DNA of 14,873 bases from an uncultured Eubacterium sp. (GTDB taxonomy: Bacteria > Bacillota_A > Clostridia > Lachnospirales > Lachnospiraceae), in assembly GCA_948468465.1 (NCBI GenBank), contig CAOKJJ010000130.1, positions 1-14,873 of the forward strand, in the 5' to 3' direction. The notes beneath the pieces were generated by a model. That model had not been told where the DNA came from. It worked only from the letters and a program-made list of their open reading frames with translations, and ran no database searches. Numbering within the stretch: the first letter of the stretch is position 1; every line of letters starts with the position of its first letter. Positions 943 through 14,775 of the stretch are shown piece by piece. Position numbers and translations under genes: made by a program.

Positions 943-1131
943 GAGGTTATTTTTCCCGCAAAAGTTATCCCGCTTTGCGGGATAACCTCAAAGGGCAAGT
1001 TTCGCCGCGTGGCACAGAAACCCGCTGGCGCGGATTTCTGCTTACGGGCAAAACTTGATGGGGATTCCGCTCCCCATACCCTCGGCTGCATATTCTGGCG
1101 AATATGCAGGATCTGGCTCCTGTTAAAACAG
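943..1131. other. oriT: Candidate origin of transfer (oriT): cluster of inverted repeats
   Basis: Directly upstream of mobC lie several inverted repeats in under 200 bases. A perfect 10-bp repeat with a 3-base loop (GTTATCCCGC, arms 964-973 and 977-986) can alternatively pair GAGGTTAT at 943-950 with 982-989. An 11-bp repeat with one mismatch has loop TGGC (arms 1015-1025 and 1030-1040). A 7-bp perfect repeat (ATGGGGA) spans 1058-1077. A 10-bp perfect repeat, again with loop TGGC, spans 1086-1109. A long-range CAAGTTT/AAACTTG pair (996-1002 and 1051-1057) encloses the second hairpin, and a 5-bp repeat (CTGTT/AACAG) sits at 1120-1131. Such arrays next to mobC are the usual form of an oriT where the relaxosome assembles. 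The nick site cannot be named from sequence alone. Confidence 0.6.
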
Positions 1132-1182
1132 TTGCAGCGCACTGAAAAACCGGTGCGGGAAAAGAAAGGAAGGCATTCATTT

Positions 1183-1617
1183 ATGGCAAGGCCAAAAAAA
1201 GAAAAAGAACTAAAACGGAACCACCGTGTCACGCTCCGCTTTACGGATGTGGAATATGAAGTTATTGCAGAAAACGCAAAAGACGCAAAGATCCCTCTTG
1301 CAGAGTATACACGCTTGCAGGCTCTGAATAAAAAAGTAACTGTAAAATATGAAATCGTGGCAGACGTGCCAGAACTTAAAAAACTGATTGCAGAGTTTGG
1401 AAAAACCGGAAGCAACCTGAACCAGATCGCCCGCCATCTGAACCAGGGCGGCCCGCAGTCTGCGGAAATGCTGAAATCCATCCGGCAGTGCATGGCAGAA
1501 ATTTACACGATGAAATATGAAGTCGTAAAAATGGCAGGCAGCTTTGCCGCCGATGCGCAGCATACAGGCAGTTCCAAAGGGCACCCTCATGGCGGCACTG
1601 AAACACATAACAGTTAA
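1183..1617 (+). CDS. mobC: MobC-family relaxosome accessory protein
   Basis: MobC proteins bind oriT and help the relaxase open and nick DNA for plasmid mobilization. The 144-residue product has an N-terminal lysine-rich tail, a ribbon-helix-helix-like segment (about 15-48, beginning RVTLRF), and the characteristic MobC signature GSNLNQIARHLNQGG at 76-90. The open frame extends upstream to 790, but AAGGAAGG ends 9 bases before the ATG at 1183 and the upstream codons overlap the hairpin array, so this start is firm. The last codons overlap the start of a relaxase remnant at 1589, the normal arrangement for mobC and relaxase. It is one of the few plus-strand genes here. The relaxase it should serve is missing, so it can act only with a relaxase supplied in trans, if at all. 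Confidence 0.88.
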   Translation: MARPKKEKELKRNHRVTLRFTDVEYEVIAENAKDAKIPLAEYTRLQALNKKVTVKYEIVADVPELKKLIAEFGKTGSNLNQIARHLNQGGPQSAEMLKSIRQCMAEIYTMKYEVVKMAGSFAADAQHTGSSKGHPHGGTETHNS

Positions 1618-1807: not shown

Positions 1808-2725
1808 TTATACGGTCTGAAACCTGGCAAGCTGCTCCACTTCTGCAACACTGAGCCCGGAACCAATGGCAACTTCCTCAACTGTCAGCTTTCCAATTTT
1901 CAGCAGCCTTACTGCAGTCCCCTTTGCAGCTTCTTTTTTAGCTTCATCCCTTAACCTCCTGGCTTCTGTTTCGATCAATGCGCCTCTCATGATATCACCT
2001 ACGCCTTTCTGCACATTTTCATACTTCTGCGCAATTTCTTTTATAACATCACCCGTTAAATCAATAATCGTCCGCTTGTCAAATGCCCCGACCACTCCCC
2101 GGCGTTCCAGTCCGTCAAGCCTTTCCAGGATACTCTGGTACTCTGATTTTAACTCTTCCAGTTTCTGCCCGCTGCTGTTATACTCCGGAAAGCTTTTCTC
2201 ATATGAAAAAATATAAAATGGAATCAGAAGCAGCAGGCGTTTTTCAAATATATCATCCAGTGTATAATTCTGTACTTTCATAACCGGCACATCATACCGG
2301 ACTGTCCCTCCCGGTGTAATGATGACATATTTCATTTTGTCCGGCGTATTTTTGTATGTCCTAAGATACAGCACTGCCGTATTTGGAAATGTCACCGTCA
2401 GCGTTTCTTCCGTAACTTCCCCTTCATCCAGCGCTATCTGCGCATCGTATTCAAAAAGCCGGACTGTGATCCTGCCATCCGGCAGGCTGCTTTCACATTC
2501 AAGATGGTACTTTTTTATTATCCTTCCAGTGATCCTGAAATTAGTGTCTGTTATCCGCTCTTTATCAGCTGCATCCTGCTGGTCTATAAAATGTTCGTTG
2601 GGAAGGAATTCAATCTTTTCATCCCCGGTATATTCTTCCCCAAAAATCTCGTTGATCACTGGAATGATCAGCTTCCTGCAGTCATTTAGTATTGTCCGGA
2701 ATGCACCGTCATATATATTGCCCAT
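1808..2725 (-). CDS. Rpn-type PD-(D/E)XK nuclease / putative transposase
   Basis: The 305-residue product resembles Rpn (recombination-promoting nuclease, PDDEXK_2-like) proteins. It opens with MGNIYDGAFRTILND, and a candidate catalytic core follows: D60 (in ITDTNF) and E76/E78 in HLECES. A charged helical region follows (about 185-275), then a short C-terminal helix-turn-helix-like segment (277-301, KIGKLTVEEVA and GLSVAEVEQLAR) common at the end of this family. Family members nick or cut DNA and promote RecA-independent recombination. A longer frame to 2782 exists, but only the ATG at 2725 has an upstream purine-rich site (GGGG, 8 bases away). It stands alone between mobC and the replication module. 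Length is normal and no break is seen. Activity is inferred from family only. Confidence 0.72.
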   Translation of the reverse strand: MGNIYDGAFRTILNDCRKLIIPVINEIFGEEYTGDEKIEFLPNEHFIDQQDAADKERITDTNFRITGRIIKKYHLECESSLPDGRITVRLFEYDAQIALDEGEVTEETLTVTFPNTAVLYLRTYKNTPDKMKYVIITPGGTVRYDVPVMKVQNYTLDDIFEKRLLLLIPFYIFSYEKSFPEYNSSGQKLEELKSEYQSILERLDGLERRGVVGAFDKRTIIDLTGDVIKEIAQKYENVQKGVGDIMRGALIETEARRLRDEAKKEAAKGTAVRLLKIGKLTVEEVAIGSGLSVAEVEQLARFQTV

Positions 2726-2913
2726 ATTAATTACCCCGCCTGCTTTCGCTTGCTTTCTGATTTTATAATACCATCTTTTCATTTCAAATTCAATCAGCTA
2801 TACACAATGCCATATACTATTTTCTGTTACTGATATAAGATTTTCTGGATACAAACATATATTGATAAAGGCGCCAGACTGCAGCACTGCATAAGATAAA
2901 TTAAATGGAAAAG

Positions 2914-2935
2914 CCCTGTTTTCAATGAAACAGGG
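2914..2935. terminator. Hairpin CCCTGTTT/AAACAGGG, possible terminator
   Basis: Perfect 8-bp inverted repeat with a six-base loop, flanked by AAAAG on the left and GAGGCTTT on the right. A secondary AAAGCC/GGCTTT pairing encloses it. No strong T-run follows on either strand, so termination is only possible. A similar AAACAGG stem recurs in the hairpin at 12272-12296. Confidence 0.4.
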
Positions 2936-3021
2936 TGAGGCTTTACATTACTGTTCATTTTTATAACATCTCATATACACTAAACTGCGGTTAACCCCAT
3001 CCCCCTGTCCTCTTCCCATAA

Positions 3022-3161
3022 AATAACACTTTTCTGCTTCCCGGAAGTATACAGCAGATGGATTTTTGTGTCAATGGCAGGGGCTCCGCCAGCTCCTCCG
3101 TCGCTCCATTGACACAAAAATCCATCTGCTGTTTATAGCGCCTAAGCAGAAAAGCCTTATT
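3022..3161. repeat. 140-bp nested palindrome
   Basis: The inner arms, 3051-3077 and 3106-3132, are perfect 27-bp inverted copies around a 28-base loop (3078-3105). Outside an 11-by-11-base internal loop, outer arms 3022-3039 and 3144-3161 match over 16 of 18 positions, the inner 11 perfectly. The loop and its edge carry three GCTCC motifs on the plus strand, read as GGAGC on the minus strand. No T-run follows either arm, so it is not an ordinary terminator. No reverse transcriptase or transposase lies beside it. It sits downstream of the repA/xre/sigma genes. Function unknown; a structured RNA, a palindromic miniature element or a single-strand origin-like site are all possible. Confidence 0.85.
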
Positions 3162-3314
3162 GTGAACGCAGGGTTCATTCCGCTTATTTTTTATTCCACA
3201 GGCTTTCCGTTTCTATTACCCGCAGCTTTTCCTGTCTGCGCCGGGTTGAGGCCATCCCCATCCCTGTTTTTAGGCCATTCCCGCATGGTTCCAGTATAAA
3301 AGATTACCACACAT

Positions 3315-3359
3315 TTTCCACAGCATGCCGTCTGTACCGCCAGTCTGTCCACAGCACGC
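3315..3359. repeat. Two 14-base direct repeats, 31 bases apart
   Basis: TTTCCACAGCATGC at 3315-3328 and TGTCCACAGCACGC at 3346-3359 match at 12 of 14 positions. The first sits inside TTTTCCACA (3314-3322), which fits a relaxed DnaA-box consensus. They lie just downstream of the second sigma-like gene. Whether they are protein-binding sites or chance is unknown. Confidence 0.35.
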
Positions 3360-3394
3360 CCGCATAAAACAGCGCGGATATGGATACAAACAGG

Positions 3395-3850
3395 CTAAAA
3401 GCAGCCGCTTATAATCCCCCTGCTTTCCATTTCTACGCGGAGCCGCCTGAGAATCCTGTCCCGGCGTTTCCGTATGCTTTTCCGGCTGCACCCGTATGAC
3501 CGCGCGGCATCCGTGACTGTCATTTCCTCAAAAAAGAGCATCCACAGCAGCCGTATGTCCTGTTCCGGCAGGCAGCCTACGCTTTCACGGAGTTTTTCCA
3601 TGCAGGCTGCTCTTATTGCATTTTCTTCCGGCGTGTTTTCCCAGTACCCGCCGGGGATGGCCGGGTGGATATTTTCGCCCAGCGTTTCAAGGCTGCAGAC
3701 GCCGTGCGCCCGTTTTTTCTCCATCTGGTACCTCTCCCTGCGCCCTGCCCGGTGCCATTCCAGGTAAACTTCCCTTGTCACTTCCACGAATGTCCCGCTG
3801 TCTGCCCGCAGCATGTATTTTTCCCGTTCGGAGGGCTTTTTTCCACGCAT
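3395..3850 (-). CDS. Sigma-70 region-4-like protein (second of pair)
   Basis: The 151-residue product carries a C-terminal helix-turn-helix of sigma-70 region-4 type (about 85-138: LPEQDIRLLWMLFFEEMTV then DAARSYGCSRKSIRKRR). Its N-terminal half (MRGKKPSEREK, then TREVYLEWHRAGRRERYQ) is a pattern I associate with putative sigma factors on Clostridia conjugative and integrative elements. Region 2, needed for -10 recognition, is not evident, so it may be an accessory or regulatory protein rather than a complete sigma factor. The frame extends to 3910, but GGAGGAATTAAA immediately precedes the ATG at 3850, fixing the start. It follows the first sigma-like gene by 13 bases, so the two are co-transcribed. 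It probably controls element genes; no target is shown. Confidence 0.72.
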   Translation of the reverse strand: MRGKKPSEREKYMLRADSGTFVEVTREVYLEWHRAGRRERYQMEKKRAHGVCSLETLGENIHPAIPGGYWENTPEENAIRAACMEKLRESVGCLPEQDIRLLWMLFFEEMTVTDAARSYGCSRKSIRKRRDRILRRLRVEMESRGIISGCF

Positions 3851-7977: not shown

Positions 7978-8460
7978 TCAGGCTGCCGGATATATGCAGA
8001 TGGCATTTTCCTGATACTCCACCTGAAGCCGTTTTCCAACAAAGAACCCTGCTTTTTCCAGCCATTTCCCTTCCATGCTGATTTTAGGACGCTCCGGATA
8101 ATAAAGTGACCCGCCATGCCACGCAGTCTGTTTCACATGTATGGAAGATGCAACTTTTATCTGTTTATTCTTTACATCTTCCATATCCCGGCTGCCTTCC
8201 ATCCCTGCCAGGTATGTATCTGCAGGCTCATGCACCGCCAGCGGCTGCCCCTCATCCACAGCATGGCTTATAAAAATATATCTGTCCCTGTAACTCACCT
8301 GCAGCTTATCCCCGATATGAAATCCGATCTGCTCCAGCCATTTTCCCTCCATGCTGATTTTAGGACGGTCGGCGTGTGAGCATGAATGTAATACTTTTAT
8401 TGATTTAATCTTCTTTCCGGACTGGCTCTGTTCCAGATTAGCAGTTTTCTTTCCTTGCAT
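7978..8460 (-). CDS. Twin-domain SymE-like protein
   Basis: SymE proteins are small toxins or nucleic-acid-binding proteins with an AbrB-like fold, normally one domain of roughly 50-110 residues. This 160-residue protein contains two copies: about 17-67 and 98-158, each with the core RPKISMEGKWLE, then GF, then G, then LQV-Y and an I-I end strand. They are joined by an acidic linker (68-97). AbrB-fold proteins work as dimers, so the chain may be a covalent pseudo-dimer. The DNA of the two cores is nearly identical over about 30 bases (near 8058-8091 and 8336-8370), pointing to a fairly recent duplication. GGAGG lies 6 bases before the ATG. A promoter and hairpin lie just upstream. Toxicity is inferred, not shown. 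Confidence 0.8.
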   Translation of the reverse strand: MQGKKTANLEQSQSGKKIKSIKVLHSCSHADRPKISMEGKWLEQIGFHIGDKLQVSYRDRYIFISHAVDEGQPLAVHEPADTYLAGMEGSRDMEDVKNKQIKVASSIHVKQTAWHGGSLYYPERPKISMEGKWLEKAGFFVGKRLQVEYQENAICIYPAA

Positions 8461-13344: not shown

Positions 13345-14526
13345 TTATTCATTCCTTTTCAGCACCTCATCCATAATCTGATTCATTGTCACTACGCCCC
13401 GCTCCACCGAATCGTCAAAGGAATGTCCATATATATCCGTTGTAGTCGATACCTGCTTATGCCCTCCTAATTTAGCAACGTCCACTGCACTCATTTTTGT
13501 CATGAGCATACTGAGATTTGTATGCCGAAGGTCATGATAACGGATATGCTTAAAACCATTCTTTTCAAGAAATATTTTATACTCATTGCTCAAAGAATTC
13601 GGATTCCAGGGTTTTCCGTTATCATGGCAGAATACAAACTCCCTATCTGTATCATATTCCCTCTGCAGCAATTCCCGCATTTCCTCCTGACGGTGCTTTA
13701 CCCGCTCCAGACAATCATACAGCCAGTCCGGTATCCCTACTGTCCTGATTTCTTTATTTTTCGTTGATTTCCGCTCTACCACAGTGCCCTTTGCTGTCGT
13801 CCGTACCTGACATATCTTTATTTCCCGGCTCTCTAAATCCACATTTTCCCATTCCAGAGCACAGGTTTCCTCACGTCTGCAGCCACACCAAAATGCCAGG
13901 TTTACAGCAATCTCAAGATCATAACGTCCGCTCAGCCGCAAAGCAACCAGCAGATCTCTCGCCTCCTCCGGCGAATATATTTCATGGTTAAATTCTTCTA
14001 CCGGATAAGGTTTTATAGCATCTACCGGATTCTTATAGATACCATATATTTCTTCCTCTGACATCATATAATCAAATAGTGTATGCAGATGTGTCCGGTG
14101 CTTATTGACCGTTTTTGCGCTTAACCCTTTCTCCGTCTTCAAATATGCCATATATTGCCGGATCACAGATGTGTTCAGCTTATCTGTCCTGACATCACCA
14201 AAATATTCCAGCATGTGCCTCTGCAGATTGCGGGTGGATGTCTGCGTAGTCTCCACATTCTGCACATCACCGATATTTGTATTCCAATTATGAAATAATT
14301 CTTTCAGTGTAACCTTATTCGGCTTCTGCAGAATTTTCTTATCCCTCTGGCTTTCATGATTTCTCAAGAACTTCCGCGCTTCGGTCAGATTACCCTCAAT
14401 CACTTTCTTGCTTTTTATAATTCTGCCCCGGTCATCCCTGCCATAATACAAATCCACCCTGAATTTTTTTGGATTCTCCTTGCATTGGTAAATATTTGCT
14501 TCCACTTTTTCCCATGTCACTGCCAT
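13345..14526 (-). CDS. int: Tyrosine recombinase (integrase) of Tn916/phage type
   Basis: The 393-residue protein has an N-terminal arm-binding domain (about 1-60), a SAM-like core-binding domain (about 72-160: VTLKELFHNW ... LSAKTVNKHRTHLHTLFDYM) and a catalytic domain (about 183-385). Catalytic residues are visible: R217 in GCRREE, K256 in STKNKE, H331 and R334 in HDLRH, H356 in LGGHKQVS, and nucleophile Y366 in TDIYGH. It integrates and excises the element at a short core site, here presumably the 3' end of tRNA-Arg, next to which the gene begins. GAGGGAG lies 7 bases before the ATG. An extended -10 promoter and three repeats lie upstream. The sequence is complete with no missing catalytic residue. 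Confidence 0.95.
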   Translation of the reverse strand: MAVTWEKVEANIYQCKENPKKFRVDLYYGRDDRGRIIKSKKVIEGNLTEARKFLRNHESQRDKKILQKPNKVTLKELFHNWNTNIGDVQNVETTQTSTRNLQRHMLEYFGDVRTDKLNTSVIRQYMAYLKTEKGLSAKTVNKHRTHLHTLFDYMMSEEEIYGIYKNPVDAIKPYPVEEFNHEIYSPEEARDLLVALRLSGRYDLEIAVNLAFWCGCRREETCALEWENVDLESREIKICQVRTTAKGTVVERKSTKNKEIRTVGIPDWLYDCLERVKHRQEEMRELLQREYDTDREFVFCHDNGKPWNPNSLSNEYKIFLEKNGFKHIRYHDLRHTNLSMLMTKMSAVDVAKLGGHKQVSTTTDIYGHSFDDSVERGVVTMNQIMDEVLKRNE

Positions 14527-14656: not shown

Positions 14657-14661
14657 CCCGA

Positions 14662-14735
14662 CGTGCGTGAGAGGATTCGAACCCCCGACACCTTGGTCCG
14701 TAGCCAAGTGCTCTATCCAGCTGAGCTACACACAC
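14662..14735 (-). tRNA. tRNA-Arg(ACG)
   Basis: A 74-nucleotide cloverleaf is readable on the minus strand: acceptor GTGTGTG with CACGCAC (one G-U pair), D-stem GCTC/GAGC, anticodon stem CTTGG/CCAAG with loop CTACGGA (anticodon ACG), T-arm GGGGGTTCGAATCCTC, and discriminator G. CCA is not encoded. Its 3' end faces the integrase gene, making it the likely attachment site of the element. Confidence 0.95.
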
Positions 14736-14775
14736 ATATTACAATATATTTGTTACTGTCTTACCGACAAGAAAT

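Follow-up and report, generated by a model that had tools for sequence, protein, structure and literature searches.

The nested palindrome at positions 3022 to 3161 of the window (the whole stretch of 14,873 nt that was analysed) is a member of a family of nested hairpins in Clostridia, whose copies have probably spread with mobile DNA, either carried along by it or as components of it. In kind it may be a mobile palindromic module like ERIC and NEMIS, with the folded form selected, perhaps as single-stranded DNA. We infer selection on the folded form because half of the tip triloops in the family are of the DNA-stable type C-GNA-G, and selection would then act on the fold, perhaps that of a single DNA strand as it arises during transfer, during replication or when a cruciform extrudes. 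A protein of the carrier or of the host might recognise the tip and assist in the movement or retention of the carriers, and in the window the palindrome would mark where the conserved part of an integrative element meets its cargo. Should the folded strand be the working form, the family would offer a direct test of single-stranded DNA hairpins in gene transfer among gut anaerobes. Loci and genomes are given below by handles beginning with L and G, respectively.

The window palindrome and its surroundings

An inverted-repeat scan of the window confirmed what the earlier note had read from the letters, i.e. inner arms that pair perfectly (27/27) around a 28-nt loop; the sole other perfect local inverted repeat of at least 12 bp that the scan listed has 15 bp. 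In a repeat search, the full arms (3022-3077 and 3106-3161) were 82% complementary and 28 nt apart. The claim of outer arms matching at 16 of 18 positions across a symmetric internal loop also stood, with the pairs counted by eye and a consensus fold of three copies placing 11 nt per side between the inner and outer stems. Three GGAGC motifs on the minus strand of the loop region could be read from the sequence as claimed, and the position downstream of sigma-like genes was correct. The features are collected in Table 1.

Table 1. Features of the palindrome in window coordinates; the strand of the covariance model is the window minus strand.
Feature	Position	Strand	Basis
Whole nested palindrome	3022..3161	minus	Folds, repeat search, inverted-repeat scan
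Outer stem, 5' arm	3144..3161	minus	16/18 paired with 3022-3039; consensus fold
Symmetric 11-nt internal loop, 5' side	3133..3143	minus	Consensus fold
Inner stem, 5' arm, ending in the conserved TGTCAATGG	3106..3132	minus	Inverted-repeat scan, family alignment
Tip hairpin 1, weak in the window copy (AGC...GCT)	3091..3105	minus	Three-way junction of consensus fold
Tip hairpin 2, GGC-GGA-GCC, a C-GNA-G triloop	3082..3090	minus	Sequence, consensus fold, tip count
Inner stem, 3' arm, starting with the conserved CCATTGACA	3051..3077	minus	Inverted-repeat scan, family alignment
Promoter-like TTGACA-N17-TATACT over 3' arm and start of internal loop	3046..3074	minus	Best promoter-like site of 2700-3500 (11/12)
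Outer stem, 3' arm	3022..3039	minus	Sequence, consensus fold
Island conserved with E. plexicaudatum ASF492, 85.7% identical	3004..3197		Neighbouring sigma-gene region ~73%

Folding of positions 3000-3180 gave -81.8 kcal/mol for the plus strand (z -10.5) and -84.1 kcal/mol for the minus strand (z -8.6), each against 200 dinucleotide shuffles, none of which was as stable as the real sequence on either strand. An ordinary terminator or a chance palindrome is hardly credible in the light of these folds. The palindrome does sit 3' of a gene, but no Rho-independent terminator (a GC-rich stem followed by a T-run) was found at 3022-3161, in agreement with the earlier note, and the two such sites in 2700-3500 lie elsewhere; moreover, the conserved family with compensatory changes described below refutes this reading unless the alignment is wrong. 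In an Rfam scan of the window the only match at gathering score was the tRNA, with none on the palindrome.

The window itself looks like the end or a part of an integrative element. It contains a tRNA-Arg(acg) gene at 14660-14736 and, by Pfam, a tyrosine integrase at 13345-14526, together with a small HTH_17 protein, a RepA_N-DUF6017 protein, two sigma-region-4 proteins and proteins of the NikA/MobC, SymE, YqaJ and DUF932 types. No transposase or reverse transcriptase was found among the 20 window proteins scanned with Pfam, as had been claimed for the immediate neighbourhood of the palindrome. The SymE-type protein (7978-8460) gave two matched stretches, and it looks internally duplicated because a 92% direct repeat of 38 nt is present at 8057 and 8333.

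With an alignment of the nearest sigma-like protein we recovered 69 loci, some of which end early downstream, and the same palindrome was present downstream of the sigma-like gene in three of them. One (L001) is from a Eubacteriaceae isolate whose catalogue we take to be that of the mouse gut, and the other two (L008 and L026) are both from a single genome, E. plexicaudatum ASF492. We therefore rejected the palindrome as a conserved partner of the sigma gene. The window is 89.3% identical to L001 over 4.2 kb, with homology from 3023, the outer edge of the palindrome; against L008, identity is higher in the island around the palindrome than in the sigma-gene region. The far (left) side of the window gave no alignment with L001 or L008. 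The boundary between core and cargo of the integrative element appears to fall at 3004-3197 and leftward. Another E. plexicaudatum locus, L069, was considered as an empty site and rejected: its inner hairpin is gone, and the pattern, that of an uneven internal deletion, seems to be how the hairpin was lost.

Homology that begins at the outer edge of the palindrome, with the far side unaligned in both relatives, is also what an attC-like recombination site might leave if cargo were exchanged beside the hairpin, and tyrosine recombinases lie ~220, 48 and 64 nt away in L008, L177 and L183, respectively. Nonetheless, we regard such a site as very unlikely. The recombinase in L177 appears to belong to DNA that an IS3-type carrier entered, and no shared recombination core was found in an unsystematic search. 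Cargo junctions lie at many places in integrative elements.

Spread of the family and conservation of pairing

Relatives, multiple copies and compensatory changes were what the earlier note had proposed to look for, and a unique palindrome without conserved stem pairing was what it had named as speaking against it; relatives with conserved pairing were found. A covariance model, R1, built from three sequences and, like its successor, calibrated briefly, was searched against 397 genomes from the bacterial family to which G002, the E. plexicaudatum genome, belongs (presumably Lachnospiraceae); it matched in 9 of them, and its matches included full-length divergent members. A second model, R2, built from 11 members, matched in all 10 carrier genomes that were chosen. 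Two large searches with R2, in which filters were strict, few candidates were scored per genome and matches were read in part, gave matches in 58 of these 397 genomes and in 30 of 341 from the class, three of which were also in the first sample. The class search gave 12 loci, of which the 10 new ones were examined. Non-members among the model matches were L111 (G260), a simple repeat, and L035, an unrelated hairpin, and L241 and L250 carry the tip only in weak form. An identical hairpin is present in L227, L228 and L235 (G035, G350 and G145, respectively); the family is wider than the model matches because R2 did not list these places.

Members have in common the tip, i.e. TGTCAAKGG and CCMTTGACA around small hairpins. 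A 5' flank near CTTGAYTACC and an outer stem beyond the internal loop are frequent, and the other stem sequence is largely free; in relatives the 5' side of the internal loop comes after the CTT, with GAYTACC frequent there. When the loci of 16 relatives were scanned with Rfam at E up to 1, nothing on the hairpins reached gathering score, the only matches there being to three microRNA models at scores well short of it (E 0.005-0.025).

Changes on both sides were observed for 21 of 31 pairs in an alignment of 11 members. In this alignment, 89.3% of cells were paired, versus a shuffle mean of 71.5% and 35-49% when the partner was slid by 1-3 columns, and none of 500 shuffles was as high on any of five covariation measures. 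Because the members of the alignment, A5, had been found with a structure-aware model, so that the test leans to structure, it was redone with a pattern for the 5' half only. This pattern matched 14 times in the 397 genomes, versus 3 times for its reversed form. With every match counted, 10 of the 14 had a 3' arm whose complementarity exceeded that of all 200 shuffles of the match's own downstream letters. The 10 positives include non-independent cases, namely the identical L227, L228 and L235 and the single subfamily of L229, L234 and L238, and some of the 10 were already model matches. As to the four without a 3' arm, two are mutually identical and L237 pairs at 15 of 23 positions, with a shuffled maximum of 16. 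In IMG/VR viral contigs, none of 47 matches to the same 5'-half pattern had a 3' arm that surpassed all 100 shuffles. In this family, pairing is under selection and is kept by double changes.

Copies in mobile DNA and as dispersed chromosomal repeats

Comparison of the loci showed that copies ride in several kinds of mobile DNA and also occur as dispersed chromosomal repeats. Several copies each were found in G056, G311, G197 and G383, mostly between ordinary genes, and many genomes show one place only. Four of 55 copies lay inside an ORF of at least 120 aa, with ORFs called by a simple script. The orientation of the genes around the copies was mixed (21, 16, 9 and 5 among the 51 of 55 with genes on both sides), and in multi-copy genomes the strand assignment is uncertain, both strands scoring alike. 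Orientation by replication was considered and rejected, as GC skew on the model strand was positive for 28 and negative for 27 of the 55 copies. The copies L154 to L159 in G197 share longer flanks with further small hairpins, and the repeat unit there is thus larger than the palindrome.

The ends of a carrier bounded by direct repeats could be delimited for two copies only. In L091 the hairpin lies within a 256-bp element with the direct repeat CTCTTC at its flanks, and the element interrupts a transposase gene of IS30 type. The parts of the gene on either side correspond to positions 67-200 and 212-267 of the NCBI IS30 model, each piece below cut-off. The stretch that is split there is uninterrupted in relatives. 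The IS30-type gene was not intact apart from the insert, because another stop lies further upstream, and an IS30 DNA search in the genus of G045 returned nothing informative. In L089, from another genome, the element is of 257 bp with CCACT direct repeats at its flanks, and the ends of the two elements are similar (TGCA...TGCA). A primase-helicase with an AEP-TOTE domain (L089, 4018-6963) adjoins the 257-bp element. Direct repeats were recognised neither at the window copy, which is a palindrome without a delimited carrier, nor consistently at the multi-copy palindromes, and the analysis turned up no transposase that acts on the palindrome. In transposon-type miniature elements the ends are usually the best conserved part; in the palindrome family it is the tip that is conserved, and the outer ends differ from carrier to carrier.

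Other copies go with IS3-type genes. Two contigs of G269 have 619 bp in common at 99.8% identity, with different flanks beyond, and this unit consists of the end of an IS3 transposase gene, the hairpin just behind its stop and a short tail. This IS3 gene matched above the model cut-off in L251, and in L090 the hairpin follows 14 nt after an IS3 transposase gene that is split into two ORFs. The hairpin of L177 was considered as part of an IS91-type element and this was rejected, since it goes with an IS3-type element there. Furthermore, eight copies from six genomes (G001, G020, G258, G269, G280 and G373) are 92-100% identical over 90 nt, and their flanks are conserved too. A sigma-region-4 gene and a tyrosine recombinase lie near the hairpin of L173, and in L093 a gene for a conjugative coupling protein has the hairpin at its 3' end, and a relaxase gene lies farther on. 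At an intergenic site with two copies in G056, the orthologous site of the sister genome G404 is without both copies and ~850 bp, a difference that is not a clean excision.

Searches of sequence collections for further carriers were mostly silent. The window palindrome gave nothing informative by blastn versus plasmids and phages, nor did two other palindrome copies versus plasmids, and neither a 19-mer nor the sigma protein gave anything informative versus viral contigs. One match was observed for the L173 query, 71% of which was matched at 81.6% in MT835476.1 (58500-58657; L321), an unannotated 113.9-kb record labelled as phage, from human faeces. In G260, a group II intron D1-D4 match (L084, 1168-1343) lies just upstream of a copy. 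In L131, two matches to the TwoAYGGAY RNA in opposite orientation, 1093-1252 (minus) and 2605-2760 (plus), flank a palindrome copy.

Folded DNA, RNA and likeness to known systems

For the promoter and tip counts, 63 copies were passed to an anchor script, from which L153 had been left out; four with a score below 9 were dropped (L111, L169, one of L181, and L156), leaving 59 copies with 51 distinct tips. C-GNA-G accounted for 31 of 61 tip triloops with stems of at least 3, and all four letters occurred at N. The longer motif GCGNAGC was present in 28 of the 51 distinct tips (on average 1.0 and at most 4 in shuffles), and its complement, which would put the loop on the other strand, in 8 of 51. 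Among other perfect hairpins of the same loci, counted with stems of at least 6, C-GNA-G was found in 5 of 783, and in 0 of 18 terminator-like ones. According to PMC4686876, DNA mini-hairpins with GNA or GNNA loops are extraordinarily stable when they have two or more G-C pairs, and GCGAAGC melts at up to 78 degrees. As a rule, RNA of identical sequence is not known to share such stability. Because C-GNA-G tips are abundant and exceptionally stable in DNA, we lean to a folded DNA strand as the possible working form; shared descent of the GNA loops weakens the count.

The compensatory changes would also be expected of a structured RNA, made as part of the transcript of the upstream gene, that shields, cleaves or regulates the message, as reported for ERIC and NEMIS in PMC2229807. 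Consistent with an RNA, the copies in L090, L252 and the window lie just 3' of genes on the same strand, the upstream gene being sigma-like in the window and an IS3 transposase in two other genomes. We nevertheless consider this reading somewhat unlikely, given the mixed orientation of genes around the 51 copies and the absence of any Rfam family at gathering score from the hairpins of the window and of the 16 relatives' loci. The tips point the same way. C-GNRA-G and C-TTCG-G, the usual stable RNA loops, were found in 5 and 0 of the 51 distinct tips, respectively, versus 28 for GCGNAGC.

In the promoter-like site of the window the -35 box lies at the tip and the -10 box begins at the end of the inner stem, where the 11-nt internal loop follows; L001 and L008 have TTGACA-N17-TACACT. 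This arrangement would suit a single-strand origin or promoter, in which the strand folds after transfer or rolling-circle replication and RNA polymerase reads the TTGACA of the stem and the pre-opened internal loop to make a primer or early transcript. Such a role has precedents, as far as the published descriptions cover them, in sso1 of ICEBs1 (PMC4595007), also a folded single strand on an integrative element, whose structure counts as heavily as its sequence, and in Frpo/ssi (PMC11541004), where a stem carries -35 and -10 elements in a conjugative element. For the palindrome family, however, this reading is quite improbable. With a hand-typed -10 matrix, scores of at least 2 bits were reached at 33 of 58 ends on the model strand versus 26 of 59 opposite ends (shuffled flanks 21%), and because both ends are A+T-rich there is no clear promoter direction in the family, in contrast to sso1. 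Unlike Frpo/ssi, the family is not tied to leading regions, many copies being chromosomal among ordinary genes, and its -10 is not clearly conserved, so that a conserved promoter of the whole family was rejected. The hairpin promoters of the N4 virion RNA polymerase are likewise small DNA hairpins with GNA loops, much smaller and confined to one phage.

A bolder form of the folded-DNA reading, which we put forward tentatively and hold to be rather unlikely, would have one cis-acting DNA hairpin module, read as a folded single strand through its tip and GNA mini-hairpins, adopted by unrelated mobile elements of Clostridia (IS3-type, miniature, and integrative or conjugative) for a shared job such as the start of second-strand synthesis or early transcription.

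The three readings offered in the earlier note found support in part. A non-autonomous palindromic element is the best supported, by the short elements bounded by direct repeats, the IS3 transposase genes and the compensatory changes. For the single-strand origin, the TTGACA-N17-TATACT of the window fits a folded strand, but the family has no clearly conserved -10. A sponge RNA for a GGA-binding (CsrA-type) regulator was unsupported, as relatives are without the GGAGC repeats and instead keep TGTCAAKGG and the tip hairpins, often with GCGNAGC.

ERIC/IRU sequences are short, non-coding, mostly intergenic, long imperfect palindromes, present in many copies and non-autonomous, according to the descriptions in PMC2229807 and PMC2267715. 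The 127-bp enterobacterial ERIC resembles the palindrome family in size, place, hairpin and copy number, and differs in being found in enterobacteria and related genomes and in its 7-bp terminal repeats, whereas the palindrome family has Clostridia hosts, free arm sequence and a kept tip, and its copies ride behind IS3 genes and in carriers bounded by direct repeats. Correia/NEMIS elements are described in the relevant part of PMC2229807 as palindromic, of ~107 or 155 bp, with target-site duplications and a hairpin in transcripts; they have 24-bp terminal repeats, whereas the palindrome family is without common outer ends. By analogy, the family may work like ERIC and NEMIS; we file it under neither, the likeness being one of published descriptions and direct repeats at the ends being seen for two carriers only. 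As for MITE features, the 256- and 257-bp elements, with similar ends around the hairpin, would fit a short non-coding element with inverted ends, the window copy being outside any delimited carrier, and several dispersed intergenic copies per genome are present in the four multi-copy genomes.

Palindromic dispersed repeats are known from enterobacteria, Neisseria and pneumococci, as set out in the portion of PMC2229807 that deals with them, and clostridial repeat families named Clop-1, Clot-1 and Clot-2 appear in part of PMC2267715. No description of a palindromic dispersed repeat of gut Clostridia was found among the papers listed in literature searches. The present family is unusual because the tip rather than the ends is kept, compensatory selection is clear, the carriers are of several kinds and the loops hint at folded DNA.
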